Shown piece after piece: positions 31,704 through 45,707 of a DNA stretch of 64,000 bases; within the stretch, counting starts at the first letter, position 1, and every line of letters begins with the position of its first letter. This stretch comes from Gemmatimonadota bacterium (GTDB lineage Bacteria > Gemmatimonadota > Gemmatimonadetes > Longimicrobiales > Gaopeijiaceae): assembly GCA_030428885.1 (NCBI GenBank), contig JAUIEJ010000009.1, positions 62,001 to 126,000 of the forward strand, in the 5' to 3' direction. The notes under the pieces are model-generated. The model worked only from the letters and a program-made list of their open reading frames with translations. It was not told the origin of the DNA and did no database searches. The position numbers and the translations under genes were made by a program.

Positions 31704-31844
31704 TCAGTCGTCGTCTTTCAGGATCCGCCGGGGCGGGTCGTCCAGATCCTCGAACTGGCCGTCCCGGGCCGCCAGCAGGAAGAAGATCAGGAAGACCAGG
31801 GCCAGGATCACGGCCACCGGCAGGAGGACCACCACGATGTTCAT
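31704..31844 (-). CDS. ccoS: cbb3 oxidase assembly protein CcoS
   Basis: A 46-residue single-pass membrane protein: 'VVVLLPVAVILALVFLIFFL' followed by 'AARDGQFEDLDDPPRRIL', the exact family pattern (hydrophobic helix, then G-Q-F-D/E-D-L...P..R-I-L). CcoS is needed to insert heme or copper into cbb3 oxidase. The ATG overlaps the ccoI stop as ATGA. Too short for most gene finders but well supported. Confidence 0.93.
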   Translation of the reverse strand: MNIVVVLLPVAVILALVFLIFFLLAARDGQFEDLDDPPRRILKDDD

Positions 31845-34228
31845 GCGGCCTCCCGGGCGCCGGGGCCCCGACCGTCCGAGGCGTCGGGCGCCGGCACCGC
31901 TGCTCCCGCCGGATCCCGGGCCTCGGCCCGCCGCACCGACGCCTCGACCCGGGAGGCACCCCACAGGACCAGGCCGCTGGAGAGGGGCATGAGAATCGCG
32001 GCCACCAGGGGGTTCACCCATCCCAGGGCCGCCGCCCCCACCGCCGTGACGTTGTAGACCAGGGAGCGGATCAGGTTGCCTCGGATCGCCCGCCGGGCGG
32101 CCCGAGCGGCTCGGATCGCCGCCGCCACCGGCGCCACCGAAGCGGTAGCCAGCACGCCGTCGGCGGCCAGGATGGAGCTTGCGGCTCCGGTGCCCATGGC
32201 CACCCCCACCCGGGCCGCCGCCAGGGCCGGGCCGTCGTTGAGGCCGTCGCCCACGAACACCACCCGGTGCCCCTCCGCCGTGGCCTCCTCGATCCAGGCC
32301 GTCTTGTCGTCGGGCGAGCGGCGGGCCAGGACCGTGGCGATTCCGGCCCCGTCGGCCATGTGGCGCGCCGGTTCGGGATCGTCGCCCGTGAGGAGCACCA
32401 CCTCGAGTCCCAACGCCCTCAACGCCGCCACGGCGGGCCCCGAATCGACCCGGAGCTGATCGCCCAGGTAGATCGCCCGCCGCGTATCGTCGTCGGCCAC
32501 CAGGTCGACCCGGCCCGGGCCGCCCCGCTCCAGGCGCCACCGCCGCTCGTCGATGCGCCCCTCGATCCCCGTTCCCGCCGTCTCCCGGACCTCGGACGCC
32601 GCCGGCAGGGGAATGCCCCGGGCTGTGGCCTCCCGGGTCACGGCCCGGGCCACCGGGTGCACGCTGAAGCGCTCGAGGCCCGCTGCGACCCGGAGCACGT
32701 CGTCGTCGGCCGCCACCACCACCATCTCTCCGCCGGTGACGGTCCCGGTCTTGTCCAGCGCCGCCACGTCGATGTCGGCCAGCTCCAGCAGCGCGTCGGA
32801 ACTCCGGAACAGGAGTCCCCGCCGAGCAGCCGCCCCGAGCCCCGCGGCCGCCGCCAGGGGATGGGAGAGGGCCAGGGCGCACGGGCACGCCACCACCAGA
32901 ACCGCCACCGTGGCCTTCAGAGCCAGGGCCACGCCGGCCGCGGCCACCCACACCCCGAAGGTGAGGGCCGCCACACCCAGGGTGACGCCGGTGAACCACG
33001 GAGCCAGTCGGTCGGCGGCGGTGGGCGCCGTGGCCCGATCGGCGGCCCGGCGAAGATCTTCGGCCATGCGGTGCACCACGGTGGCGTCGGAGGCCGCGGC
33101 CACCCGCACTTCCAGGGCGCCGTCGTCCAGGAGCGTGCCGGCAAACACCCGACCGCCGGGCTCCACGGGCACCGGATCGGCCTCTCCCGTGAGGAGGGCC
33201 AGGCGCACCAGCCCCTCCCCGCCCGCCACCACCCCGTCGGCGGGAATCTCCTCGCCGGCGGCCACCACCACCCGGTCGCCCACGGCCAGGTCGGCCGACG
33301 GCACCACGGCCACCGAACCGTCGTCCCGGAGCCGCCGAGCCGTGGCGGGCACCACCGCGGCGAGCGAGACCGCGGCATCGGCAGCGCGACGACGCCCCCG
33401 CCCCTCGAGAAGCCGTCCGGTGAGGAGGAGCGCCACCAGCATGGTGAGGGAGTCCAGGTAGGGCTCGCCCAACCCCGCGTCGGGGCCCGCCACCGTCACC
33501 GCGGCTCCGTGGACGTACAGCACCGCCACGGCCAGGGCGATGGGGAGGTCCATGTGGAGGACCCGGTGCCGGAGACCCGACAGGGCTCCGGCGAAGAAGG
33601 GGGCGGCCGACCAGAGGGCCACCGGTGTGGCCACGGCCAGCGACACCCACTGGAAGAACACCACGAAGCGGGGGGCCATGTCGCCGAACCACCCGGCGTA
33701 GAGGGCCGCCGAGAAGAGCATGACGTTGAGGGCGCCGAAGGCGGCGACGCCGAGGCGCATGACCAGGTCCCGGTCGGGGCGGGCCTCCTCCCCCAGCAGC
33801 CGGGGCCGGTACCCCAACGCCGAGATCGTGCCCGCCAACCGGGGGAGATCGACCTGCCGGGGGTCCCACCGGAGCGTGGCCCGACCCGTGGCGTAGCTCA
33901 CCCGGGCCTCGGCGACACCCGGGGTGCGCTGCAGCACGTTTTCAGTGACCCAGACGCACGAGGCGCAGCGCAACCCGTCCACCATGAGGCCCACCGAGCA
34001 GGTGCCGTCGTCGCCGGTCTCCACGGGGACGGTGTCCCATCCCCGGGCCGCGGCTTCGGGACGGGGCGCGAAGGCCTCCCGATCGTCGTAGTACCGCTCG
34101 AGCCCTGCCCCGGCGATGATGGCCGCGGCCATTTCGCAGCCGGAACAGCACCAGGTGTCGTCGGGCCCCTCCACCGGCGTTCCGCAGTGGGGACACCGGG
34201 ACACCCCGTCCGCCGGGGCCGGGGTCAC
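31841..34228 (-). CDS. ccoI: Cu(I) P1B-type ATPase CcoI/FixI for cbb3 oxidase
   Basis: A 795-residue copper-transporting P-type ATPase that exports Cu for cbb3 oxidase assembly. The N-terminal Cys-rich zinc-ribbon-like start (CPHCG..CCSGC) and the heavy-metal-associated motif GLRCASCVW are followed by eight membrane segments. The metal-binding CPC is at about residue 447, the phosphorylation motif DKTGT at about 492 and GDGLND near 690. It overlaps ccoS by 4 bases and the FixH-like gene by 4 bases, in the standard FixI position. Confidence 0.95.
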   Translation of the reverse strand: MTPAPADGVSRCPHCGTPVEGPDDTWCCSGCEMAAAIIAGAGLERYYDDREAFAPRPEAAARGWDTVPVETGDDGTCSVGLMVDGLRCASCVWVTENVLQRTPGVAEARVSYATGRATLRWDPRQVDLPRLAGTISALGYRPRLLGEEARPDRDLVMRLGVAAFGALNVMLFSAALYAGWFGDMAPRFVVFFQWVSLAVATPVALWSAAPFFAGALSGLRHRVLHMDLPIALAVAVLYVHGAAVTVAGPDAGLGEPYLDSLTMLVALLLTGRLLEGRGRRRAADAAVSLAAVVPATARRLRDDGSVAVVPSADLAVGDRVVVAAGEEIPADGVVAGGEGLVRLALLTGEADPVPVEPGGRVFAGTLLDDGALEVRVAAASDATVVHRMAEDLRRAADRATAPTAADRLAPWFTGVTLGVAALTFGVWVAAAGVALALKATVAVLVVACPCALALSHPLAAAAGLGAAARRGLLFRSSDALLELADIDVAALDKTGTVTGGEMVVVAADDDVLRVAAGLERFSVHPVARAVTREATARGIPLPAASEVRETAGTGIEGRIDERRWRLERGGPGRVDLVADDDTRRAIYLGDQLRVDSGPAVAALRALGLEVVLLTGDDPEPARHMADGAGIATVLARRSPDDKTAWIEEATAEGHRVVFVGDGLNDGPALAAARVGVAMGTGAASSILAADGVLATASVAPVAAAIRAARAARRAIRGNLIRSLVYNVTAVGAAALGWVNPLVAAILMPLSSGLVLWGASRVEASVRRAEARDPAGAAVPAPDASDGRGPGAREAA

Positions 34229-34380
34229 CGCTCTTCGGTGTTGTACGACTCCACCACCTCGTCGGCTCCGCTCACGGCCACCACGATGAAGCCGACGTTC
34301 ACCGCGATCACGAGGAACAGCCCCAGGGCGATGCCCACGGGCCAGATCCAGGCCTTCTTCGGTCGGTCAGCGCGATCCAC
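34225..34380 (-). CDS. Short FixH/CcoH-like membrane protein
   Basis: A 51-residue protein: basic start, one membrane helix (about 10-32, WPVGIALGLFLVIAVNVGFI) and a short tail ending ESYNTEER. Position between ccoG and ccoI and the N-terminal pattern (W..G...L....N..F) match FixH/CcoH, but the usual periplasmic domain of about 100 residues is absent. GTG at 34380 has GGAGGAG about 7 bases upstream and overlaps ccoG by 14 bases. It is either a minimal CcoH or a shortened relic. Confidence 0.65.
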   Translation of the reverse strand: MDRADRPKKAWIWPVGIALGLFLVIAVNVGFIVVAVSGADEVVESYNTEER

Positions 34381-35722
34381 CGGAGGCTCCTCCGACGCGG
34401 GCGTCGGTGAGGAAGGTGGCCGGGACGAAGATCTCCCCCTGCTCCGACGCCACCCGCACGTCGAAGGGCAGCGACCGACCCGCCGCCGCATCTTCGGCGG
34501 GCACCCGGATTATGAGGGGTACGGTGCGGGTCTCGGTGGACGCCAGGAGCACCGGATCCGACAGCACCTCGGCCCCGTCGAGGCCGTCCAGGGTCACGGC
34601 GTAGGTGGCCGAGGACGTCTCGGCGTCCTTGTTGGTGATCTTCAGGAGGTAGGTGTTGCGCACCCACCCGTCGGCGTCCACCACGAACGACGAGCCCGGT
34701 GCCCGGTTCACCGTGGCCTCGAAGGGCACCCGGGCCAGAAGGAGGACGGTGGCCGCCGAGGCGAGGGCCGTGAGGAGTCCCCCGTACACCACGGTGCGGG
34801 GCCGGAGCCGCCGGAGCGGGCGGCCTTCGTCCACGGCCACCGAGCTGTAGCGAACCAGGGTCTCGTGACCCAGCGGCTCCATGACCGATTGGCAGGCATC
34901 CACGCAGCGGGCGCACTGGATGCACTCCAACTGGAAGCCGTCCCGGATGTCGATGCCCTGAGGGCAGACCACCACGCACTTGCTGCAGGAAATGCAGTTG
35001 CCGGCCTCGGCGGCGGCCTTGCCCCGACCCCGGGGCTCACCCCGATCCAGGTCGTACGAGATCAGGAGCGATTCGTCGTCGGTGAGGGCGCTCTGGAACC
35101 GGGCGTAGGGACACAGATAGTTGCAGAACTGCTCCCGGAACCAGGTGAAGTCCAGATACCAGACCGCCGTGAGGATGGCCACGAAGGTGTACGACGCGGT
35201 GCTGGCCTGCCCGGTCCAGAGGGGCCGCGCCCCGGCGAAGATGCTCATCATGGCCATGGCCAGGAGGAACGACACCGCCAGGAACGACGACCACTTCGCC
35301 GCCTTGCGCCAGACGCGGTCGAACGTCCATCCCCCGGCGTCGCGCCGCTTCCGCTGCGAGCGATCCCCCTCGATCCAGAGTTCCAGCGGACGGATCCAGG
35401 ACTCCAGGAAGACGGTCTGGGGGCAGGCGTAGCCGCACCACACCCGGCCGAACACGGCGGTGAAGAAGAACAGCGTGAACGCCATGAACAGCAGGAACAA
35501 CAGCAGGAACAGCGTATCGGTGGCCGTGAAGATCTGGCCGAAGAGGAACAGGCGCCGGTGCGGCAGATCGACCAGGATGGCGGGATGGCCCTGGATGGTG
35601 ATCCACGGCGCGGCGAAGAGGAGGACGTGGAGGCCCACGAACGTCCATCGACGGAGCTTGGTGAAGCTGCCGTCGATGGACTGGGGATAGACCCACTCCC
35701 GGGTCTGCTGGAAGCCGAACAT
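34367..35722 (-). CDS. ccoG: cbb3 oxidase accessory protein CcoG (FixG/RdxA)
   Basis: A 451-residue membrane ferredoxin that reduces Cu(II) before delivery to cbb3 oxidase. Five membrane segments include 'RRLFLFGQIFTATDTLFLLL'; two [4Fe-4S] motifs follow, CISCSKCVVVCP and CIQCARCVDAC, and the C-terminal Ig-like FixG_C domain has 'VRNTYLLKITNKD'. The preceding ccoP stop is 15 bases away. Part of the cco operon. Confidence 0.94.
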   Translation of the reverse strand: MFGFQQTREWVYPQSIDGSFTKLRRWTFVGLHVLLFAAPWITIQGHPAILVDLPHRRLFLFGQIFTATDTLFLLLFLLFMAFTLFFFTAVFGRVWCGYACPQTVFLESWIRPLELWIEGDRSQRKRRDAGGWTFDRVWRKAAKWSSFLAVSFLLAMAMMSIFAGARPLWTGQASTASYTFVAILTAVWYLDFTWFREQFCNYLCPYARFQSALTDDESLLISYDLDRGEPRGRGKAAAEAGNCISCSKCVVVCPQGIDIRDGFQLECIQCARCVDACQSVMEPLGHETLVRYSSVAVDEGRPLRRLRPRTVVYGGLLTALASAATVLLLARVPFEATVNRAPGSSFVVDADGWVRNTYLLKITNKDAETSSATYAVTLDGLDGAEVLSDPVLLASTETRTVPLIIRVPAEDAAAGRSLPFDVRVASEQGEIFVPATFLTDARVGGASGGSR

Positions 35723-35737
35723 GGCGGTGAACGCCTC

Positions 35738-36337
35738 CTACCCCTCGGCCCCCGTGGAGCCGGTGTCGGGAGCTTCCTCGGAGGCCGCGGGGGCGGCCTC
35801 GGGATCCCGCAGGAAGTCGTCGATGGGTCGGCCCGTCGCTTCGGAATTCTTCGAGATGACGTAGGCGGCCACGTTGTTGATCTGTTCGGGACTCAGAATG
35901 CCGTCCCACGCCACCATTCCCTTGTCCAGGACGCCCGTGCGGATGGTGTGGATCACTTCGCTGGCGGTGCCGCCGTGGATCCACTCGTCGTCCAGGAACG
36001 AGGGGCCGATGAGCCCCTCCAGACCGGCGGCGTGGCAGGGGGCGCAGTTCTGCGTGTACACGGCCTCGCCCGCGGTGACCGCCGCGTCGCTCATGGCGAA
36101 CTGGATCTCGGCCCGAGCCTGCTCGGGCCACCGGGCTTCGGCGGCCGCCACTTCCGCCGCCAGGCGCTTCACCTGCGAGCGTTCGCCGATGAAGTGGTAG
36201 TGCACGCCGTAGACCAGGGCCCAGATGATGGTGAACCAAAAGAGGCCCAGCCACCAATCGGGCAACGGGTTGTCGTACTCCTCGATGCCGTCGGCCTCGT
36301 CGGCGTGACCCAGGAGTCGATTGGTTTCCTTGCTCAC
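35738..36337 (-). CDS. ccoP: cbb3 oxidase cytochrome c subunit CcoP with a single heme
   Basis: A 199-residue membrane-bound cytochrome c that feeds electrons to CcoN. It has the CcoP N-terminus (HADEADGIEEYDNPLPDWW), one membrane helix (about 31-48) and just one CXXCH, CAPCH at 98-102, with Met ligand region 'VLDKGMVAWDGIL'. Typical CcoP proteins are about 300 residues with two hemes; this one lacks the second cytochrome domain. GTG at 36337 overlaps the ccoQ stop. Confidence 0.9.
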   Translation of the reverse strand: MSKETNRLLGHADEADGIEEYDNPLPDWWLGLFWFTIIWALVYGVHYHFIGERSQVKRLAAEVAAAEARWPEQARAEIQFAMSDAAVTAGEAVYTQNCAPCHAAGLEGLIGPSFLDDEWIHGGTASEVIHTIRTGVLDKGMVAWDGILSPEQINNVAAYVISKNSEATGRPIDDFLRDPEAAPAASEEAPDTGSTGAEG

Positions 36338-36513
36338 TCGATCCCTCCATCCGCAAAAGGCAGGCGGGCGGCGTCCTCGAACTGCGCCTTCCGCTTCGGG
36401 GAATACGCCCAGACGGTCCACGCCACGAAGAACACCAGGAAGAGCCCCGTCATGACGCCGAGTACCCATCCACCCTGAATGGTCTCGGCGGCGGCCCGGG
36501 TCACCGTATTCAT
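36334..36513 (-). CDS. ccoQ: cbb3 oxidase subunit CcoQ
   Basis: A 59-residue single-helix protein: the helix 'GGWVLGVMTGLFLVFFVAWT' then 'WAYSPKRKAQFEDAARLPF', the family's YSPKRKxxFxxxARLPF motif. CcoQ stabilises the oxidase complex. The ATG overlaps the ccoO stop as ATGA and its stop overlaps ccoP. It falls below the length cut-off of many gene finders. Confidence 0.93.
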   Translation of the reverse strand: MNTVTRAAAETIQGGWVLGVMTGLFLVFFVAWTVWAYSPKRKAQFEDAARLPFADGGIE

Positions 36514-37322
36514 CGGCTCCCTCCCGCCCCGCTCACCTCGGAGGCGTCGGCGGTGCGGGTGTCGTCCGCGGCGTCGGCCTCTTCGGCCTGGGCGGTCTCC
36601 CGGGCCTCCAGCACCCGTCGCCCGTCGGTGCCCAGCCGCTGCAGGTAGGCGATGACGGCGATGATCTCCCGGTCCCAGCTCGTCTCGATGCCGGTCTGGG
36701 CCAGATTGGCCACGATGGTCTCTCCCTGGGACTGCATCTGGCCCCGGACCCACTCCTCATCGGTGCTCTCGTAGGGATGGCCGAGCTTCGACAGGGCCCG
36801 GACCGACGCCGTCACGTCGGCGGGATCGGTGGTCCAATCCAGGAGCCACGAATAGGCCGGCATGACGCTGCCGGGAGACGTGGCCCGGGGGTCGCGCATG
36901 TGCTCGTAGTGCCAGGCGTCGGGGTATTTCCCGCCGACCCGGTGCAGGTCCGGCCCCAGGCGGCGGGAGCCGAGCTGGAACGGGCGGTCGTACTGGTATT
37001 CCCACGCGCGGCTCCACTCGCCGTATCGCAGGATCTCGGCCCGCATGGGCCGCACCATCTGGGAGTGGCAGAGGTAGCACCCCTCCCGCACGTAGATGTC
37101 GCGCCCCGCCTGCTCCAGGGGCGTGTACGGCGTCACCTCGGCGATGGTCTCGGGGCCGAGGCTCGCCGAGAACATGGGTACGATCTCCACGATGCCGCCG
37201 ATGGAGATGGCCACCGTGGTGGCGATGGCGAAGACGGCGGCCCGGCCCTCCAGGACCCTCCGGTGGAACCGCCCGTAGGCGGTCTCCGACTCGTGGGCGC
37301 CGTTGTTCTGTTCGTCAGCCAT
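36510..37322 (-). CDS. ccoO: cbb3 oxidase monoheme cytochrome c subunit CcoO
   Basis: A 270-residue membrane-anchored cytochrome c. One N-terminal helix, then the heme motif CYLCH (82-86) in the context 'IYVREGCYLCHSQMVRP', and the sixth-ligand region 'SPGSVMPAYSWLL'. The C-terminal 40 residues are an acidic, Ala/Glu/Asp-rich tail. Located 15 bases after ccoN; the stop overlaps ccoQ. Confidence 0.95.
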   Translation of the reverse strand: MADEQNNGAHESETAYGRFHRRVLEGRAAVFAIATTVAISIGGIVEIVPMFSASLGPETIAEVTPYTPLEQAGRDIYVREGCYLCHSQMVRPMRAEILRYGEWSRAWEYQYDRPFQLGSRRLGPDLHRVGGKYPDAWHYEHMRDPRATSPGSVMPAYSWLLDWTTDPADVTASVRALSKLGHPYESTDEEWVRGQMQSQGETIVANLAQTGIETSWDREIIAVIAYLQRLGTDGRRVLEARETAQAEEADAADDTRTADASEVSGAGGSR

Positions 37323-37337
37323 GGTCGTCGCTCCCCG

Positions 37338-38792
37338 TCAGGCGGCCCGGGCCGCGGCCTCGACGGGCCGGCCGGATCCACGAATGGTCTGCCAGAAGTT
37401 GATGGCCATCATGATGGCGCCCACCAGATACATGGTCCCGCCGATGAGGCGCAGCCACAGGAACGGCTCGAGGCGGGCGGTGATGTCCAGGAAGATGGGG
37501 TTGGCCAACTGGCCGGCGTCGTTGATGGCACGCCACTGGAGGCCTTCCATGAGGCCGGCGGCCCACATGGCCACCGTGTAGAGCACGATCCCGATGGTGG
37601 CCAGCCAGAAGTGGTGGCTCACCCAGGTGGGGTGACGGACTTCCCGTCCAAAGATCCGGGGCACCATCCAGTACAGCATGCCGAACGAGATCATCCCCAC
37701 CCATCCCAGGGCTCCGGAATGAACGTGGCCGATGACCCAGTTGGTGTAGTGGGCCAGGCCGCTCACGGCCCGGATCGACATCATGGGGCCTTCGAAGGTG
37801 CTCATGCCGTAGAACGAGACGGCCACGACCATGAATTTCAGGATCGGGTCGGACCTCAGCTTGTTCCACGCCCCCTTCAGGGTCAGGAGGCCGTTCAGCA
37901 TCCCGCCCCACGACGGGGCCAGGAGCATGATGCTGAAGACCATGCCCAGGGTCTGGGCCCACTCGGGCAGGGCCGAGTAGAGCAGGTGATGGGGCCCGGC
38001 CCAGATGTAGAGGAACACCAGCGCCCAGAAGTGGATGATGGACAGCCGATAGCTGTACACCGGACGCTCCGCCGCCCGGGGCAGGTAGTAGTACATCAGG
38101 CCCAGGAACGGCGTGGTGAGGAAGAAGCCCACGGCGTTGTGCCCGTACCACCACTGGACCAGGGCGTCGGTCATGCCGGCGTAGACCGGGTACGACCGGA
38201 CGAGGGTCGCCGGGATGGCGAGACTGTTGAAGATGTGGAGGACCGCGATGGTCAGCACGAACGACATGTAGAACCAGATCGCCACGTACATGTGCTTCAC
38301 GCGGCGGCGCGCCAGCGTCCCGAAGAAGTTGATGGCGAACACGACCCAGATCACCGTGATGGCCACGTCGATGGGCCAGATCAGTTCGGCGTACTCCTTG
38401 GCCTGGGTCAGCCCCAACGGCAGCGTGACGGCGGCCGCCACGATGATGCCCTGCCACCCCCAGAAGTGGATCCTGGAGAGGGTGTCGTTGAACATCCTCG
38501 TCTTCAGGAGCCGCTGGGTGGAGTGGTAGATCCCCGTGAAGCAGACGTTGCCCGCGAACGCGAAGATGACCGCGTTCGTGTGCAGGGGGCGGAGGCGACC
38601 GAAGGTCGTCCAGGGGAGTCCGAGGTTCGCCGGCCACCAGGCGAGCTGGAGGGCGATGATCACGCCCACGAGCATGCCAACCAGCGCCCAGACCACGGTG
38701 GCGGTGAAGAACATCTTCACCACCGCGTCGTCGTAGACGGGTGTGACCGCCGCGCCTGTGGCGGGCTGGGTTGCGGTCCGATCGGGGTCCAT
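37338..38792 (-). CDS. ccoN: cbb3-type cytochrome c oxidase catalytic subunit CcoN
   Basis: A 484-residue heme-copper oxidase subunit I of the C-type, the high-affinity terminal oxidase used at low oxygen. Twelve membrane helices carry the low-spin heme His (RPLHTNAVIFAFAGN), the CuB His in 'WWYGHNAVGFFLTTP', the helix VII 'YIWAGPHHLLYS' and the heme ligands in 'IGHVHSGALGWVG'. ATG at 38792 has GAGGAAGG 4 bases upstream. It follows the TauE/SafE-like gene after 23 bases, which is therefore the probable first gene of the operon. Confidence 0.96.
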   Translation of the reverse strand: MDPDRTATQPATGAAVTPVYDDAVVKMFFTATVVWALVGMLVGVIIALQLAWWPANLGLPWTTFGRLRPLHTNAVIFAFAGNVCFTGIYHSTQRLLKTRMFNDTLSRIHFWGWQGIIVAAAVTLPLGLTQAKEYAELIWPIDVAITVIWVVFAINFFGTLARRRVKHMYVAIWFYMSFVLTIAVLHIFNSLAIPATLVRSYPVYAGMTDALVQWWYGHNAVGFFLTTPFLGLMYYYLPRAAERPVYSYRLSIIHFWALVFLYIWAGPHHLLYSALPEWAQTLGMVFSIMLLAPSWGGMLNGLLTLKGAWNKLRSDPILKFMVVAVSFYGMSTFEGPMMSIRAVSGLAHYTNWVIGHVHSGALGWVGMISFGMLYWMVPRIFGREVRHPTWVSHHFWLATIGIVLYTVAMWAAGLMEGLQWRAINDAGQLANPIFLDITARLEPFLWLRLIGGTMYLVGAIMMAINFWQTIRGSGRPVEAAARAA

Positions 38793-38815
38793 GGCCTTCC
38801 TCGTGCGAAGGAACG

Positions 38816-39538
38816 TCAGCGCCCGGCGTCGGCCGGGGCGGGGGTGGAGGGGCGCTCGACGTCGTCGCCGGGCGCCGGGGTGTGGGTGTTCGTCGCATCC
38901 GGGGCGGCGTGGGCTCCGTGGTTCATGGAGCCCATGCGGGGAAGGACCCCCTGGCGCATGCCCACGGATACCAGCCCGAGGATCAACACGCCAGCCGCCA
39001 GGGCGCGGCGGAAGCGCAGATCCCGGAGCACGAGCCGTCGAGCCCCCAGCGTCATGGCCACCAGGGCCGGGGCCGTCCCCAGGCCGAACGCCACCATGGA
39101 GAGCGCGCCCACCAGGGGCGTGCCCGATGCCACGGGGATCGCCAGGGCCGCGTAGACCAGCCCGCACGGGAGGAGTCCCGTGGTCAGCCCCAGCAGATAG
39201 CCCGGCACGAAGCCGTTTCCCCGGGCGGCCCGGCCCGCGAGGGTCGAGACGCCGGGAATCCGGAGAGTGGGTTCGGGGACGAGGCCCGCCAGGGCTCCGG
39301 CGAACCAGATCAGAAGCACCGCCGAGACCACGGCGGCCACCCAGCTCGGCCCGGGGAGCGCGGCGCCGAAGGCTCCGGCCAGAGCCCCGAGAACGGCGTA
39401 GGTGGTGAGTCGCCCGGCGTGCCACGCGAGGCCGCGACGCCCCCCGCCGCACGCCATGGCGAACCCGCCGCACATGCCCATGCAGTGGGGGCTTCCGACC
39501 AGACCGGCGAGCGCGGCTGCGCCCAGGGAGGGGAACAT
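38816..39538 (-). CDS. Sulfite exporter TauE/SafE-like (DsbD_2) membrane protein, first gene of cco operon
   Basis: A 240-residue protein with six membrane segments. It starts 'LAGLVGSPHCMGMCGGFAMA', the Cys-rich signature of the DsbD_2/UreH-like group that is often found with cbb3 oxidase genes and probably takes part in copper supply or thiol chemistry during oxidase assembly. A second motif is 'GLLPCGLVYAALA'. The His/Met-containing tail (MGSMNHGAHAAPD) may bind copper. The next gene, ccoN, begins 23 bases on, so it is co-transcribed. Confidence 0.85.
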   Translation of the reverse strand: MFPSLGAAALAGLVGSPHCMGMCGGFAMACGGGRRGLAWHAGRLTTYAVLGALAGAFGAALPGPSWVAAVVSAVLLIWFAGALAGLVPEPTLRIPGVSTLAGRAARGNGFVPGYLLGLTTGLLPCGLVYAALAIPVASGTPLVGALSMVAFGLGTAPALVAMTLGARRLVLRDLRFRRALAAGVLILGLVSVGMRQGVLPRMGSMNHGAHAAPDATNTHTPAPGDDVERPSTPAPADAGR

Positions 39539-39576: not shown

Positions 39577-39660
39577 ACGACTCCACTCGTGCTCCATCTG
39601 TCGGGAGTGTGCGGAGAGCCCTGTGGGGCAGACCCCCACATCCGTGTCCCGAGGCCCCGG

Positions 39661-40314
39661 TCACATCTCCTTGAGGAGTCCCACCCGCAGCGCGAAGCGC
39701 ACGAGCTCCGAGCGGTGGTTCAGGCCCAGCTTGTCCATGATCCGGGCCCGATAGGTGTCGACGGTCTTGGGAGAGATGAAGAGCTTCTTGCCGATCTCCC
39801 GGGAGCTGAAGCCCTCGGCGGTGAGGGCCAGAACCTCCTGCTCCCGGCTGCTCAACTCGTGGAGGCCGGCCAGGTCGGGATTCTGCTCCGCCGACTTGTA
39901 CTGCTGGAGCAGGAGCCGCGTCGCCTTGGGCGGGAGAAACACCTCGCCCCGGGCCACCACCATGAGGGCCTCGATGAGGTCCCGGTCGGCGCTGGTCTTG
40001 GTGAGGTACCCGCTGGCGCCGGCCTCCACCACCGGCACGAGGTACTCCTCCTCGGCGTGGACCGTGAGGACCAGCACCCGGGTGTCGAGGCCCAGGGCGG
40101 CGATGCGTCGGGTGGCCTCCAGCCCGTTGGAGTCGGGCATGGAGAGGTCCATGACCACCACGTCGGGCTTCAGGGCCCGGACCTGGTCCACGGCGTCGTC
40201 GCCCGACGCCGCCTCGCCCACCACCGTGAGGCGATCTTCGGATTCGAGGAGGGCCTTGATGCCGGCCCGGAACATGGCGTGGTCGTCGACCAGGAGAATG
40301 CGGGTTTCAGACAC
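39661..40314 (-). CDS. NarL/FixJ family response regulator
   Basis: A 217-residue two-component regulator. Receiver domain 1-120 with acidic pair D10-D11, phosphorylation site Asp 56 (VVVMDLSMP), and Lys near 104 (YLTKTS). LuxR-type HTH at about 150-212: 'LSSREQEVLALTAEGFSSRE' with IGKKLFISPKTVDTYRARI. It overlaps the histidine kinase gene by 8 bases, so they are a cognate pair. It lies 122 bases upstream of the cco operon on the same strand, and cco genes are an attractive target by analogy with FixJ. Confidence 0.93.
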   Translation of the reverse strand: MSETRILLVDDHAMFRAGIKALLESEDRLTVVGEAASGDDAVDQVRALKPDVVVMDLSMPDSNGLEATRRIAALGLDTRVLVLTVHAEEEYLVPVVEAGASGYLTKTSADRDLIEALMVVARGEVFLPPKATRLLLQQYKSAEQNPDLAGLHELSSREQEVLALTAEGFSSREIGKKLFISPKTVDTYRARIMDKLGLNHRSELVRFALRVGLLKEM

Positions 40315-41413
40315 GACCGAGTTCCTCGGCGATCTCCACGGGAATCCGGAAGCGAACCCGGGTGCCCTGGCCGGGCAGGGACTCCACCCGGACGTCGCCC
40401 CCGAGCATGACGGCGCGTTCCTGCATGCCGAGGAGTCCGAGTCCCCGGCCCTGGAGGGCCAGGTGCTGGGGGAAGAACCCGGTGCCCTGGTCTTCCACCA
40501 GGCCGATGATCTGCTCCTCCTCCACCCGGATCCGCACCCGGGCCTGAGGCACCCCGGCGTGGCGCACCACGTTGTTCAACGCTTCCTGCACGATCCGATA
40601 CAGGATCAGGGTCCCGTCGGGCGTGAGGAGCCGGTCCACCGGCTCCACGTCCAGAAGCACGTCCACTCCCCGGCCCTCCCGGAGCAGGCGGGCATGGGAG
40701 CGGAGGGCCGACTCGAGCCCGGTGTCCTCCAGCTCCGGCGGGCGGAGTCCCCGGGCGATGCGACGGACGCCGTCGGCGGTGTCGGTGATGGCCTGACGGA
40801 TGTCGTCGAGTCGCTGCAGGGTGTCGGGGTCGTCGATGTCCTTCTCCAGCAGCTTCAGCCGCACCAGGACGGTGGCCAGTCTCTGGGCCGTGTCGTCGTG
40901 GAGATCCCGGGCGATGCGGGCGCGCTCGTCTTCCGAGGCCCGGAGCGCCCCCGCGCCGAAGTCCCGGAGCCGCTTGTGGAGGGAGATGTCCCGGACCGTG
41001 GCCACGGTCCAGTCCTGCCCTTCGGGCCCCTCGAACGGGGCGAGGGAGATCTCCACGGGGAACTCCACGCCGCCCTGACGGACCGCCCGGAGTTCCATGC
41101 CGATGCCCATGGGGCGAACCGCCGCCGCACGCTGATATCGGGCCCGATGCTCGTCATGGGCACCGCGGGCGGAGGGGGGAACGAGTTGCTCCACCGCCAT
41201 GCCGTGAAGCGCCTCGGCGGGGTAGCCGAACAGCTTCTGGGCCATGGCGTTCGCTCTCCGGATGACCCCGGAGGCATCCACCAGGAGGATCCCGTCGGGG
41301 GAACTCTCGAAGATCGCCTGATCGTTGGGGCTGGTCACGAGCTCGGGAGGGAAACCGCAAGATGCGTGGGTGAATCCCCCACAGGGCGGAGGGAGGCTTT
41401 CCGACAGACGCAC
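40307..41413 (-). CDS. PAS-domain sensor histidine kinase with FixL-like heme-binding residues
   Basis: A 368-residue soluble kinase: PAS domain about 33-145, HisKA_3 dimerisation domain with phosphoacceptor His 172 (RIARDLHDDTAQRL), and an HATPase with 'RIVQEALNNVVRHAG' and DQGTGF. No membrane segment. In the PAS domain, His 86 with Arg 92 (AHDEHRARY) and GIG at 103-105 align with His200, Arg206 and GIG of FixL, while the distal Arg220 equivalent is Met 106. It could therefore bind heme and sense O2, CO or NO, though many PAS domains share this motif without proof of heme. A GTG at 41338 is an alternative start that would drop the first 25 residues. Confidence 0.88.
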   Translation of the reverse strand: MRLSESLPPPCGGFTHASCGFPPELVTSPNDQAIFESSPDGILLVDASGVIRRANAMAQKLFGYPAEALHGMAVEQLVPPSARGAHDEHRARYQRAAAVRPMGIGMELRAVRQGGVEFPVEISLAPFEGPEGQDWTVATVRDISLHKRLRDFGAGALRASEDERARIARDLHDDTAQRLATVLVRLKLLEKDIDDPDTLQRLDDIRQAITDTADGVRRIARGLRPPELEDTGLESALRSHARLLREGRGVDVLLDVEPVDRLLTPDGTLILYRIVQEALNNVVRHAGVPQARVRIRVEEEQIIGLVEDQGTGFFPQHLALQGRGLGLLGMQERAVMLGGDVRVESLPGQGTRVRFRIPVEIAEELGRV

Positions 41414-41501: not shown

Positions 41502-42635
41502 ATGAAGGCGACGCCCGCCCCTCCTGAATTCCCGCGCGTCACGGCGCGTTCCGCGTCGGTCGCCCCGCGACCGACGTGGCTCCGTGCGGCCCTTCGCGCG
41601 CCCCTCTTCTGGAAGATCTTCGTCCCCCAGGCGGCGTTGCTGGGCGGGTTGGTGGCCTTCATGGCCGCCGCCGTGCCTCGGGTCACGTCGCCGGGCGGGA
41701 TCGTCGGCGTGGTGGGCCTCGGCGTCGTCGTCACCGCCGCCCTCTCGGCCTGGATCATCCACCTGGCCCTGAACCCCATCCACGCCCTCACCGAGGCGGC
41801 CCGGCGCGCCGCCGACGGCGAAGTGGCGGTCCGGGCCCCCGACTCGGCCCACGCCGACCCCCGGATCGCCGGACTCACCGCGGTCTTCAACGAGATGCTG
41901 GAGTGCCTGGAGCGGACCCGCGCCGACCAGCGGGACGGCTCCCGACGGGTGTTGGCCGCCGAGGAGAGGGAACGGGAGCGCATCGCCCACGAGCTCTATG
42001 CGGGAACGGCCCAGACCCTGGCGGGGGTCCTGATCCGGCTGCGCATTCTCGAACGGGCCCAGGACCGCGGCGACCCCCGGCCCGTGTTCGAGGAGGTCCA
42101 GTCCGAGGTGCGGAGCGCCCTGGAGGAGGTGCGGGCGGTGGCCCGTCGGCTCCGCCCGCCCGAACTCGACGAGCTGGGGGTGCGCGCCGCCCTCGAGGCC
42201 CACGCCCGGCAGTTGGAGGAGTCGTTCGGAGTGCCCGTGGCGTTCCACGGCGACCTCCCCGAAGACCTCCTCGACCCCGGCGCCCGCCTGGCCCTCTTCC
42301 GCATCGTCCAGGAGGCGTCCACCAACGCGGTCCAACATTCCGGCGCCTCCCGGGTGGACGTTCGGTTCCGGTCGCGTCGCACCGCCTTCTGCGCCGAGGT
42401 GGTGGACGACGGGTCCGGATTCGATCCGGCGTCGGCCGTGCCCTCCACCGACGCCCAGCTCGGGCTCGTGGGCATGCGGGAGCGGGCCGAATACGTCCGG
42501 GGGCGCTTCAGCATCGACTCCACCCCCGGCGGGGGGACGGTCCTTCGCCTCGACCTCCCCTGGGCTCCCACCGAACCCCTGCCCGAGGCGCCGTTCGCCC
42601 CGGCGTTGGAGCTCGACCTGGCGCATCACTTCTGA
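41502..42635 (+). CDS. Membrane HAMP histidine kinase with missing phosphoacceptor His
   Basis: A 377-residue protein, ATG at 41502 after GGAGG. Two membrane helices (about 38-58, 66-88), a HAMP domain (88-140), a HisKA_3-like segment and an intact HATPase: N box 'RIVQEASTNAVQHSG', G1 DDGSGF, G2 LGLVGMRERAEYV. In the HisKA_3 segment the usual E-L-H-D reads E-L-Y-A (Tyr 166), so the phosphoacceptor is lost; a His two to three positions earlier (His 163) is out of register. ATP binding should remain. It may be a pseudokinase modulating the neighbouring kinase, or an ATP-dependent regulator. No receiver gene follows it. Confidence 0.88.
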   Translation: MKATPAPPEFPRVTARSASVAPRPTWLRAALRAPLFWKIFVPQAALLGGLVAFMAAAVPRVTSPGGIVGVVGLGVVVTAALSAWIIHLALNPIHALTEAARRAADGEVAVRAPDSAHADPRIAGLTAVFNEMLECLERTRADQRDGSRRVLAAEERERERIAHELYAGTAQTLAGVLIRLRILERAQDRGDPRPVFEEVQSEVRSALEEVRAVARRLRPPELDELGVRAALEAHARQLEESFGVPVAFHGDLPEDLLDPGARLALFRIVQEASTNAVQHSGASRVDVRFRSRRTAFCAEVVDDGSGFDPASAVPSTDAQLGLVGMRERAEYVRGRFSIDSTPGGGTVLRLDLPWAPTEPLPEAPFAPALELDLAHHF

Positions 42636-42664: not shown

Positions 42665-43564
42665 ATGTTCAAGTCGATCCTGGTCTCTCTCGACGGTTCG
42701 CGCTTCGCCGAATCGGCTCTTTCGGCGGGGCTGTCCCTGAGTCGGGTCACCGGCGCCGACCTGCACCTCGCCACGGTGCACGAGCCCGTGCCGAGCTTCT
42801 CGTACGACGAGTGGGAGTCGGCGGCGTGGGACTGGTCGGAGGAATACACCCAACGCGTCCAGACCGAGGCCGCACCCCTGGCCGGCGGCGGCGTCGACGC
42901 CTGGGTGGGGTCGGGCCGGGTCCTGGACTGCCTCCAGCTTCGGGCCGACGACGTCCAGGCCGATCTGGTGGTCATGGCCACCCACGGACGGGGCGCCTTC
43001 ACCCGGGCCTGGCTGGGCAGCACCGCCGACGCGTTGGTGCGTCATGCCCGCCGGCCCGTGCTCCTGATCCGCCCCGACGACGACGGGCCCCCGGCGCTCG
43101 ACGCGGACTGGGCCTTCAAGCGGATCCTGGTGCCCCTGGACGGGTCGCCCCTGTCGGAGACCGAACTCGACCTGGCCCGGGAGATGGCCGGGCTCTTCGA
43201 CGCCGAGCTCGTGCTCGTGCGGGTCGTGGCCTATCCGGTGGAGATCGCCTCGCCGTATCTGCCCCACACGGTCCAGATGAACCAGCAGATCGTCGACGAG
43301 GCGCGCGACGTCGCCCAGGCGTACCTCCACGACGCCGCCCAACGACTCCAGAGCGACGGATTCACCGTGCGGACCTTCGTGAAGGTCGACGCCCAGCCCG
43401 GCCACGCCATCGCCACCCTGGCCGCCGACGAGGAGGTGGATCTGGTGGTCATGGCGACCCACGGACGGGGCGGCCTGCAGCGCGCTCTCCTGGGGAGCAC
43501 CACCGACAAGGTGATCCGGGGCGTGCACGTGCCGGTCCTGGTGCGACGACCCACCGAATCCTGA
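42665..43564 (+). CDS. Tandem-domain universal stress protein (UspA)
   Basis: A 299-residue cytosolic protein with two UspA domains (about 1-145 and 155-297). Each has the ATP-binding signature G-x2-G-x9-G-S: 'THGRGAFTRAWLGSTADAL' and 'THGRGGLQRALLGSTTDKV'. Tandem Usp proteins act in redox, hypoxia and starvation responses. The gene starts 29 bases after the atypical kinase and precedes the CBS-domain gene by 40 bases, typical companions in hypoxia regulons. Confidence 0.93.
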   Translation: MFKSILVSLDGSRFAESALSAGLSLSRVTGADLHLATVHEPVPSFSYDEWESAAWDWSEEYTQRVQTEAAPLAGGGVDAWVGSGRVLDCLQLRADDVQADLVVMATHGRGAFTRAWLGSTADALVRHARRPVLLIRPDDDGPPALDADWAFKRILVPLDGSPLSETELDLAREMAGLFDAELVLVRVVAYPVEIASPYLPHTVQMNQQIVDEARDVAQAYLHDAAQRLQSDGFTVRTFVKVDAQPGHAIATLAADEEVDLVVMATHGRGGLQRALLGSTTDKVIRGVHVPVLVRRPTES

Positions 43565-43604: not shown

Positions 43605-44147
43605 ATGTTGACCGTACGCGACATCATGCAGACCGAAGTGGTCACCGTCGGCCCGGAAGCCACGGTCCGCGAACTCACCCGGATCCTCGCCGATTCGGGC
43701 ATCAGCGGCGTACCGGTGGTGAGCGCCTCGGGGACCGTCCTGGGCGTCGTGTCGTCGTCCGACATCGTGCGCCTCGCCGCCGAGGAACGGGAAGCCGGCC
43801 TGGTCTCTCCCGGGCATTGGGCCGCGCTGCCCCTGGGCGAGGCCGCCCGGGATCCCGAAGACGACGTCGTGGACCCCCTGGGGGCGTACTTCCTGCCGGA
43901 AGACGCGCCGCTCCTCCAGCCGGAGTGGGGGTCGGCGCCCGACGATGGACCCATGGACGAGCTCACGGTGTCCGACATCATGACGCCCGTGACCTTCACC
44001 CTTCCCATCACGGCCTCGGTCACCGACCTGGCGGACTTCCTGGTGCGGGGCCGGATCCATCGAGCGGTGGTGGTGGAGGACGGACGCCTCCAGGGCATCG
44101 TCACCACCATGGACGTGCTCCGGGCTCTGGCGGACGGGCGCCTCTGA
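43605..44147 (+). CDS. Tandem CBS-domain protein
   Basis: A 180-residue protein with two CBS motifs: 'TVRDIMQTEVVTVGPEATVR' through GVVSSSDIVRLA at about 1-62, and 'TVSDIMTPVTFTLPITASVT' through GIVTTMDVLRAL at about 122-178. CBS pairs bind adenosine nucleotides and sense energy charge. The 60-residue segment between the motifs is long for the family. It follows the UspA gene and is commonly found beside it in stress operons. Confidence 0.92.
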   Translation: MLTVRDIMQTEVVTVGPEATVRELTRILADSGISGVPVVSASGTVLGVVSSSDIVRLAAEEREAGLVSPGHWAALPLGEAARDPEDDVVDPLGAYFLPEDAPLLQPEWGSAPDDGPMDELTVSDIMTPVTFTLPITASVTDLADFLVRGRIHRAVVVEDGRLQGIVTTMDVLRALADGRL

Positions 44148-44190: not shown

Positions 44191-44751
44191 ATGATGCGCA
44201 GGTTCATCCTCCCCGCCGCCGCGGGGGTGTTTCTTCTCGCGCCCTCGACCTCCACGGCGTCCGCTCAGGAGAACCCGGTTCCCTCGGTGATTCCCCAGGA
44301 CTCGGTCACCCTGGCGCTGACCCGCTTCCAGACGCTCCAGCAGCAGGTCCAGGCGCTCCAGCAGGAGGTCATGAACGCCTCGCCCACCCTGCAGGAGCAG
44401 CAGGCCGCCGTGTCGGGCATGGTGGAGTCGGCCGTGGCCGAGATCGACCCCACGCTCCAGTCCGAGATGGAGGCGCGCATGCCCTCCATCCAGCAGGAGG
44501 CCCAGACGGCCCAGGCCGCCGGCGACACCACCCGGCTCCAGGCGCTGGAAGCCGAGTTCGTGGCCCTGCGCACCCGGGCGGAAGAGGCCCAGCAGGCGGC
44601 GGTGGATCGGCCCGAGATCGCCGCCGAGATCGAGTCGTTCGAGGACTCCCTCCGATCGGAGATGGCGGCGCGCAACCCCGACATCGCCGACACCCTGGCC
44701 GAACTCGAAGCACTGGCGGGGCGGCTCGACGCCACCCTCGGGGGCGGTTGA
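44191..44751 (+). CDS. Exported coiled-coil protein
   Basis: A 186-residue protein with a signal peptide to about residue 25 (…TSTASAQ). The mature protein is almost entirely helical and Gln/Glu-rich, with heptad-like repeats (LQQQVQALQQEVMNA, EAEFVALRTRAEEAQQAA). No Cys and no recognised domain; it resembles OmpH/Skp-like or spheroplast-type coiled coils only in composition. The stop overlaps the TTG start of the iron-sulfur membrane protein. Confidence 0.7.
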   Translation: MMRRFILPAAAGVFLLAPSTSTASAQENPVPSVIPQDSVTLALTRFQTLQQQVQALQQEVMNASPTLQEQQAAVSGMVESAVAEIDPTLQSEMEARMPSIQQEAQTAQAAGDTTRLQALEAEFVALRTRAEEAQQAAVDRPEIAAEIESFEDSLRSEMAARNPDIADTLAELEALAGRLDATLGGG

Positions 44752-45707
44752 AGCCCTCCGGTCCCCCCTGGGCCGTCCTGGGCCGGCGACTCTGTCTCGC
44801 CGGTCTCGTCGCGGTGGCCGCGGGCCTGGTGTTCCAGCCCGCCGTCACCGCGACCGTGTTCTGGTGGGGCCTGGTGCCCCTCCTTCCCGCCACGTTCCTG
44901 GTGCACCCGGGGCTGTGGCGGAACGTCTGCCCCCTGGCCACCCTCTCCATGGGACCGGACACGGTCCCGATCCGCCTCGGGGCCGCCGCCGAAGCGAGTC
45001 CCTGGGCCGGGGCCGCCGGGGTGCTCCCCTTCCTGGCCCTGGTGGCGTGGCGGGGCACGGGACTGGATTCCGATCCCGCGGGCACGGGGGCCCTCCTGGC
45101 CGGCGTCCTGGGCTTCGCGGTGGTGGCGGGGCGGCGGGGGGAGCGCCGCAGCGGCTTCTGCAATCGGTTCTGCCCACTTCTTCCCGTGGAACGCCTCTAC
45201 GGGCAGCGTCCGTGGGTCGAGATCCAGGACTCCCGGTGCGCGTCGTGCACCCTCTGCACGCCCCGGGGCTGCGTCGATCTGTCGCCGCCGGCCGCGGCGG
45301 CCCAGCTCCTGGGACCGGGTCGCCGGGGCATGGAGTGGCTCCTGACCCCGTTCGGGGCCTTCGCGGCGGCGTTCCCCGGATTCATCGTGGCCTGGTTTCG
45401 AACGGTGCCGGCGTCTCCCGCGGTGCTGAACCTCCTGGGGGCCCTCGCCGTGGGGCTGGTGGTCTCGTGGTTCGTGGTGGCCGCGGTAGTCCGCTGGAGC
45501 GGCGTGCCCTGGCGCCTCGCCCTCCCCACCCTGGGCGCGCTGGCTGCGGGCCTCTACTACGCGTACGCGGCCCCTCGCGCCGTGGCGGCCCTGGGGGGCG
45601 GAGCGGGACTCGGGCGCTGGATCCAGGTCGGGGCCGTGGCGTTCGTGGCGGCGTGGTGGATCCGGGCCGTGCGCCGAGCGGGATCCCGGGGAGCCCGCCC
45701 GGTTTAG
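44748..45707 (+). CDS. NapH/NosR-like membrane iron-sulfur protein
   Basis: A 319-residue protein with about seven membrane helices and Cys motifs like polyferredoxins of the NapH/NosR/RdxA type: NVCPL (Cys 61), GFCNRFCPLLP (138, 142) and a ferredoxin-like C164-x2-C167-x2-C170-x4-C175. The last group could hold one [4Fe-4S] cluster. Proteins of this type pass electrons from quinol to periplasmic partners. TTG at 44748 overlaps the upstream stop; another start cannot be excluded. Its partner is not obvious; the barrel protein follows 7 bases on. Confidence 0.75.
   Translation: MKPSGPPWAVLGRRLCLAGLVAVAAGLVFQPAVTATVFWWGLVPLLPATFLVHPGLWRNVCPLATLSMGPDTVPIRLGAAAEASPWAGAAGVLPFLALVAWRGTGLDSDPAGTGALLAGVLGFAVVAGRRGERRSGFCNRFCPLLPVERLYGQRPWVEIQDSRCASCTLCTPRGCVDLSPPAAAAQLLGPGRRGMEWLLTPFGAFAAAFPGFIVAWFRTVPASPAVLNLLGALAVGLVVSWFVVAAVVRWSGVPWRLALPTLGALAAGLYYAYAAPRAVAALGGGAGLGRWIQVGAVAFVAAWWIRAVRRAGSRGARPV

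Follow-up and report, generated by a model that had tools for sequence, protein, structure and literature searches.

A natural clade of HisKA_3 proteins without the phosphoacceptor histidine adjoins a FixL-like kinase/regulator pair in Gemmatimonadota and probably acts on it as a brake or reader

To our knowledge, few natural pseudo-histidine kinases have been studied well, with DivL being the standard case and the best-studied one with Tyr at the phosphosite. Pseudo-histidine kinases are already known as a kind: DivL of Caulobacter crescentus has Tyr at the phosphosite, keeps the regulator-facing residues of a normal DHp docking face, binds a regulator within a multi-component circuit and is described as having neither kinase nor phosphatase activity (PMC4211667), and an evolved ChrS variant of Corynebacterium glutamicum is an inactive kinase that affects a neighbouring system (PMC9491836). 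For DesK, the Gln five residues after the phosphoacceptor His (H+5) is reported to position the water for dephosphorylation, positions H+5, H+8 and H+12 to touch the regulator, and the His to lie buried inside the DHp core in the phosphatase state (PMC5231405); for NarX, phosphatase activity is reported to require both the Asp and the Gln of the DxxxQ motif (PMC3510030). The light-activated phosphatase phytochrome DrBphP is another kinase-shaped protein that acts as a phosphatase; however, it is a photoreceptor, and its abstract does not mention a missing His.

Here, we describe a pseudo-histidine kinase gene at 41502..42635 (+ strand; ORF call) of the window, the whole 64-kb stretch of DNA that was analysed. 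The 377-aa product has two predicted membrane helices, HAMP-like helices, a HisKA_3 domain without the phosphoacceptor His and a HATPase_c domain. Pfam recognises HisKA_3 at residues 157-222 (40.6 bits, over the cut-off of 24) and HATPase_c at residues 262-354 (46.2 bits, over the cut-off), while residues 68-139 resemble the HAMP part of other sensor kinases, with HAMP itself below the Pfam cut-off. Residues 160-173 read RIAHELYAGTAQTL. The replacement of the phosphoacceptor His by Tyr166 (TAT, 41997..41999, +) and of the following Asp of kinases by Ala167, first proposed in the first-pass annotation, was confirmed in this ORF. The nearest orthologues (G004 and G003, 59 and 57% identical) also read ELYAGTAQ and 20 of 21 divergent orthologues have no His, so the change is due neither to a sequencing error nor to chance. 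Gln171 (H+5; CAG, 42012..42014, +) aligns with the phosphatase-motif Gln of NarX/DesK, and the ATP-binding boxes (42309..42491, +) are intact, with QEASTNAVQHS as N, DDGSGFD as G1 and LGLVGMRERA as G2. AlphaFold2, given the 21 orthologues, returned one confident, kinase-like chain (mean pLDDT 84.5, pTM 0.57), and this predicted structure supports a kinase-like fold only; we read its helices at 35-60 and 64-104 as the two membrane helices continuing into the HAMP-like helix. In a fold search, structures of DesK were the top matches.

Compared with DivL, which is a PAS-domain protein of alphaproteobacteria acting on a hybrid kinase, the window protein is of the HisKA_3 type, has two membrane helices, belongs to a clade that also has Phe, Leu or Val at the phosphosite, and lies beside a FixL-like kinase in Gemmatimonadota. 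With NarX and DesK it shares the DHp family and Gln H+5, but it has no His, and the Asp of DxxxQ is missing here and in 15 of the 21 family members. The ChrS variant carries a laboratory-evolved frameshift in the ATP domain and keeps its His, whereas the His loss described here is natural and clade-wide. Our literature search, which included few subscription papers, returned no description of this gene or of a HisKA_3 group that extends across a clade next to a FixL-like pair, and no paper linking HisKA_3 with a pseudokinase.

The gene is divergent from that of a partner histidine kinase (40307..41413, -) consisting of a FixL-like PAS domain, HisKA_3 with the His present (RIARDLHDDTAQRL) and HATPase_c; the start of this kinase is probably a GTG at ~41338 rather than 41413, because the conserved part begins near there. 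It is followed by a gene for a NarL/FixJ-type response regulator with a receiver and a LuxR-type DNA-binding domain (39661..40314, -). A PDB search matched the PAS domain of the partner to FixL (E 1.4e-12), and the His that aligns with the FixL haem ligand, which we take to be His200, is kept in 27/27 PAS kinases aligned; by this position, the partner kinase looks FixL-like and oxygen-sensor-like. The pair is further like FixL/FixJ in that cbb3 genes are adjacent, and differs in that the DHp domain of the partner kinase is HisKA_3 and in that haem binding is only predicted from sequence. Beyond the regulator lie genes for a DsbD_2 protein and for the cbb3 oxidase (ccoN, ccoO, ccoP and ccoG; 34367..39538, -), an arrangement also found in G001, G002, G003 and G005 in addition to the window genome (G000), and, after them, a copper-type P-ATPase gene (31841-34228). 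Directly downstream of the pseudokinase are genes for a double universal stress protein (Usp; 42665..43564, +) and, based on Pfam and gene order, a CBS-pair protein (43605..44147, +).

We searched 77 genomes of relatives and then 121 genomes of the same family and read the regions around the matches. In 21 same-family genomes, including G000, a HisKA_3 gene is divergent from a PAS kinase/NarL-type regulator pair; for G003, in which the pseudokinase and the kinase/regulator genes lie at the ends of different contigs, we infer this pairing. The phosphosite is occupied by Tyr in 10 of the 21 proteins (G000, G001, G002, G003, G004, G007, G024, G041, G115 and G127), Phe in five (G005, G031, G118, G123 and G126), Leu in four (G013, G021, G122 and G124), Val in one (G119) and His in one (G010, ELHNELAQ). 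Absence of the phosphoacceptor is therefore conserved in 20/21 same-family orthologues; orthologues with His at 166, named in the first-pass annotation as its refutation, number 1/21 (G010). The residue pair varies in a second respect, with Leu-Asp in G013 and G021 versus Tyr-Ala in the window protein. Although the G010 protein has the His, it has lost the N-box Asn and the G2 Gly and is therefore probably inactive as a kinase as well; the His may be a reversion or a retention. One further candidate (G117:C181), considered as a 22nd family member, reads ELHDDTAQ and has no partner kinase in the stretch read; we regard it as a canonical relative and did not count it with the family. It might be argued that these proteins still autophosphorylate on another residue, be it Tyr166, His163 or elsewhere, as the ATP boxes of the window protein are intact and Tyr is the commonest site residue. 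However, other orthologues have Phe, Leu or Val instead of Tyr, and only 9/21 have His163, which precedes the site by three residues and was rejected as a replacement acceptor; with no acceptor conserved, we consider this explanation very unlikely.

A wider genome scan gave 25 loci, of which 17 were non-His members, all from Gemmatimonadota (some labelled Longimicrobiales or Gemmatimonadales), and the remaining eight were distant canonical kinases from other phyla. In a search of 249 genomes of the phylum, we found, outside the family, proteins with Tyr (G240, G244 and G278) or Gln (G301) at the site, each divergent from a kinase/regulator pair, with a PAS kinase in the three Tyr cases. In G280 (L206), the gene for a protein with Glu at the site follows a regulator gene and a kinase fragment on the same strand, and in G047, one with Arg immediately precedes a regulator. 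Another protein with Gln, in G297 (L204), adjoins a regulator gene with no PAS kinase between and has degraded ATP boxes. G066 (L051/L122) encodes a HisKA_3 protein with Glu at the site, and no partner kinase was found within the 12 kb that was read. The Glu-site proteins of G066 and G280 group apart from the main pseudokinase clade.

The partner kinases of the same 21 genomes allow a matched comparison. His, Asp, Gln H+5 and the N-box Asn are each present in all 21 partners; in the 21 pseudokinases, the corresponding numbers are 1, 6 (Asp at H+1), 21 and 18. The second Gly of the G2 box is kept in 6/20 pseudokinases versus 20/21 partners, G1 and G2 being counted out of 20 because the G007 pseudokinase is cut by a contig end. 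These counts argue that the kinase chemistry has eroded while Gln H+5 has not. Five of the 21 (G001, G031, G010, G024 and G115) have damaged ATP-binding boxes but still carry Gln H+5; accordingly, the earlier proposal that N, G1 and G2 are intact and the ATPase is kept holds for the window protein but not for the clade. Gln H+5 is present in all 28 members of the non-canonical set (21 from the family and 7/7 non-His proteins from outside it). All canonical relatives compared have it too (29/29 PAS kinases and 28/28 HAMP-type kinases, G066 being counted among the latter), so that its retention is the retention of an ancestral residue. Altogether, the His and usually the next Asp have been lost across an orthologous, co-inherited group, and the residues of the DHp fold and Gln171 have been kept. 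The clade thereby shows which kinase residues are dispensable (His, Asp and, in some members, the ATP boxes) and which cannot go (Gln H+5 and the PPxLxELG stretch), and it offers a natural test of what the histidine-kinase fold serves once phosphorylation is gone, in a set of 21 same-family orthologues and their relatives, most of which adjoin an intact partner kinase and regulator.

We suggest that the pseudokinase is probably a brake on the adjoining system, or a reader of it, and not a kinase. In our preferred reading, to which we assign a probability of roughly 45%, it is a regulator-docking protein that provides membrane-linked feedback, either by phosphatase action or by trapping the phosphorylated regulator, and that is probably made when the pathway is on. 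The DHp helix would dock on the adjoining NarL-type regulator using Gln171, and docking would lower or hold the phosphorylated regulator, with the two membrane helices as the signal input; members in which an acidic residue survives could be Gln-dependent phosphatases, while members without one could be traps. At the three positions described for DesK, the pseudokinases resemble their partners, both having Gln at H+5, Ala or Ser at H+8 and, one Met excepted, an aliphatic residue at H+12. We speculate that the replacement of His by Tyr, Phe, Leu or Val suits a side chain that is permanently buried. Several points weigh against this reading. The DxxxQ motif has its Gln but has Ala167 in place of the Asp, which is kept in only 6/21, and eight of the 21, including the window protein, have no acidic residue at either H+1 or H+2, which speaks against strong phosphatase activity in those members. 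DivL binds a regulator, yet is not a phosphatase (PMC4211667), Gln H+5 is ancestral, and the pseudokinase is dispensable, because 19 other kinase/regulator loci that we read are without it. From the comparisons with DesK, NarX and DivL, we settle on docking to the regulator with negative feedback, which may work either by phosphatase action or by trapping.

Two rival explanations were weighed against this reading. One would make it a reader in the manner of DivL, which binds the phosphorylated regulator without enzyme activity and passes the information to the PAS kinase. The Tyr, the normal docking face and the reported lack of both activities in DivL, together with the missing Asp of DxxxQ in most of the family, would suit such a role; however, DivL carries PAS domains and its target is the hybrid kinase CckA, whereas the window protein has only two membrane helices with a HAMP-like linker and is not flanked by a hybrid kinase, and we regard this explanation as improbable. 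The other, and the main rival, is the one put forward in the first-pass annotation, namely that the pseudokinase heterodimerises with the neighbouring kinase. Joined via the DHp helices to the soluble PAS kinase, it would recruit this kinase to the membrane and alter its activity, or lend it an ATP domain in trans. DHp helix 1 is indeed alike in the two proteins, with R-8, L-1, A+4, Q+5 and L+7 identical in 20-21 of 21, the genes are tightly linked and divergent with matching sub-groups in both trees, the ATP boxes of the window protein are intact, and native ChrS and HrrS, both histidine kinases from one organism, are reported to heterodimerise in two-hybrid assays (PMC9491836). By contrast, the Arg at H-3, invariant in the partners (21/21), is found in only 5/21 pseudokinases, the later helical turns diverge, and in the same source the truncated ChrS pseudokinase itself gave no heterodimer. 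ATP lending is not general, since the boxes are damaged in five members. Because Gln H+5 is kept in all, His and Asp are lost and the ATP site is decaying in some, direct action on the regulator fits the residue pattern at least as well, and we consider heterodimerisation unlikely. The interpretation in the first-pass annotation is thus supported in part: the lineage-wide loss of the phosphoacceptor and the tie to the complete neighbouring pair stand, the latter from synteny, matching tree sub-groups and shared control DNA.

This shared DNA is a composite element, CCCACA-N17-CCGACAG, which lies between the divergent genes at 41378..41407 (+), directed towards the pseudokinase gene, with a second copy at 39598..39627 (-) upstream of and directed towards the DsbD_2/cbb3 oxidase genes. 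These are the only two exact matches in the 5.39-Mb genome. In its general form, approximately TGTGGRGRAWWYCCCCACA followed after ~15 bases by YCCGACAG, the element is found in the divergent intergenic region of most pairs, directed towards the pseudokinase or, in loci without it, towards Usp. A strict form is present in 14/21 divergent regions, and weaker forms are visible in those of G041, G024, G115, G126 and G127; none was seen in the G010 region, and the G003 region was unreadable. Because these intergenic regions served to define the element, finding it in them is partly circular, while its scarcity elsewhere and the reversed control are not: the stricter form has 37 matches in the 121 family genomes versus 2 for the reversed control. 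Among the 37, 13 are at the kinase/regulator locus and two precede cbb3 genes. Others precede a nitrous-oxide reductase gene (nosZ) with a cytochrome c in G123, seen as a fragment at the end of the locus, a gene for a copper nitrite-reductase-like (nirK-like) protein below the NCBIfam cut-off in G117, a Usp gene in G001 and a gene for a radical-SAM protein of a haem-synthase-like family in G002. Five near-identical matches from one genus (g11) and matches in G000:C2, G003 and G134 have no link to the system and are probably due to chance. Matches with one mismatch were dropped as background (9 in the window genome versus 6 in the control), and a scan of the 64-kb window allowing two mismatches gave no excess (4 matches versus a shuffle mean of 5.5); in the window, only the two exact matches were used.

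We infer that the element is probably the site of the NarL-type regulator and that the predicted regulon concerns low oxygen and nitrogen oxides. Because it precedes both pseudokinase-Usp-CBS and the cbb3 genes, the pseudokinase would itself lie inside this regulon and would probably be produced when the oxygen-sensor-like pathway is on, to feed back on that pathway. From the cbb3 adjacency and the elements before nitrous-oxide-reductase and nitrite-reductase-like genes in relatives, the circuit may matter for respiration at low oxygen and for N2O turnover in Gemmatimonadota.

In a tree built without the two site columns, the 21 family pseudokinases form one clade (SH-aLRT 86), the support falling to 62 once distant members from outside the family are added. 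Six sub-groups are common to the pseudokinase and partner trees (G007/G010, G013/G122, G021/G124, G118/G123/G119, G000/G003/G004 and G024/G115). A single His loss for all is not supported, as the tree with outside-family members needs at least four His/non-His changes. In several of the 19 loci without the pseudokinase, Usp and CBS themselves directly occupy the divergent position, so more than one loss or gain of the gene has taken place. Over nine pairs, with synonymous sites near saturation except in G021/G124 and G024/G115, the pseudokinase has dN/dS values of 0.19-0.40 and the partner has values of 0.16-0.32; in the two close pairs, they are 0.19 and 0.29 versus 0.22 and 0.28, respectively. 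This shows that the pseudokinase is under purifying selection. A decaying gene without function would be suggested by the long branches, the absence from 19 loci and the ATP-box decay in some members; however, the frame is open in the members read, and 24 columns are invariant across the 21 sequences at a mean column identity of 39%. Together with the dN/dS values, these columns led us to reject the pseudogene reading, the least probable of all those considered here.

More tentatively, and with a good deal of doubt, we suggest that histidine kinases of this phylum have repeatedly been turned into non-kinase, regulator-docking membrane feedback elements of an oxygen/nitrogen-oxide regulon. If true, these proteins would be a natural class of phosphatases or traps that derive from kinases and are dedicated to response regulators, with Tyr, Phe, Leu, Val, Gln, Glu or Arg at the site and Gln H+5 always kept. 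Downstream of Usp-CBS, the window encodes two proteins without a Pfam match (44191-45707, +); the first is conserved in G001 and G004 and the second (44748-45707) in G003, G004 and G005, with gene order kept in each case.
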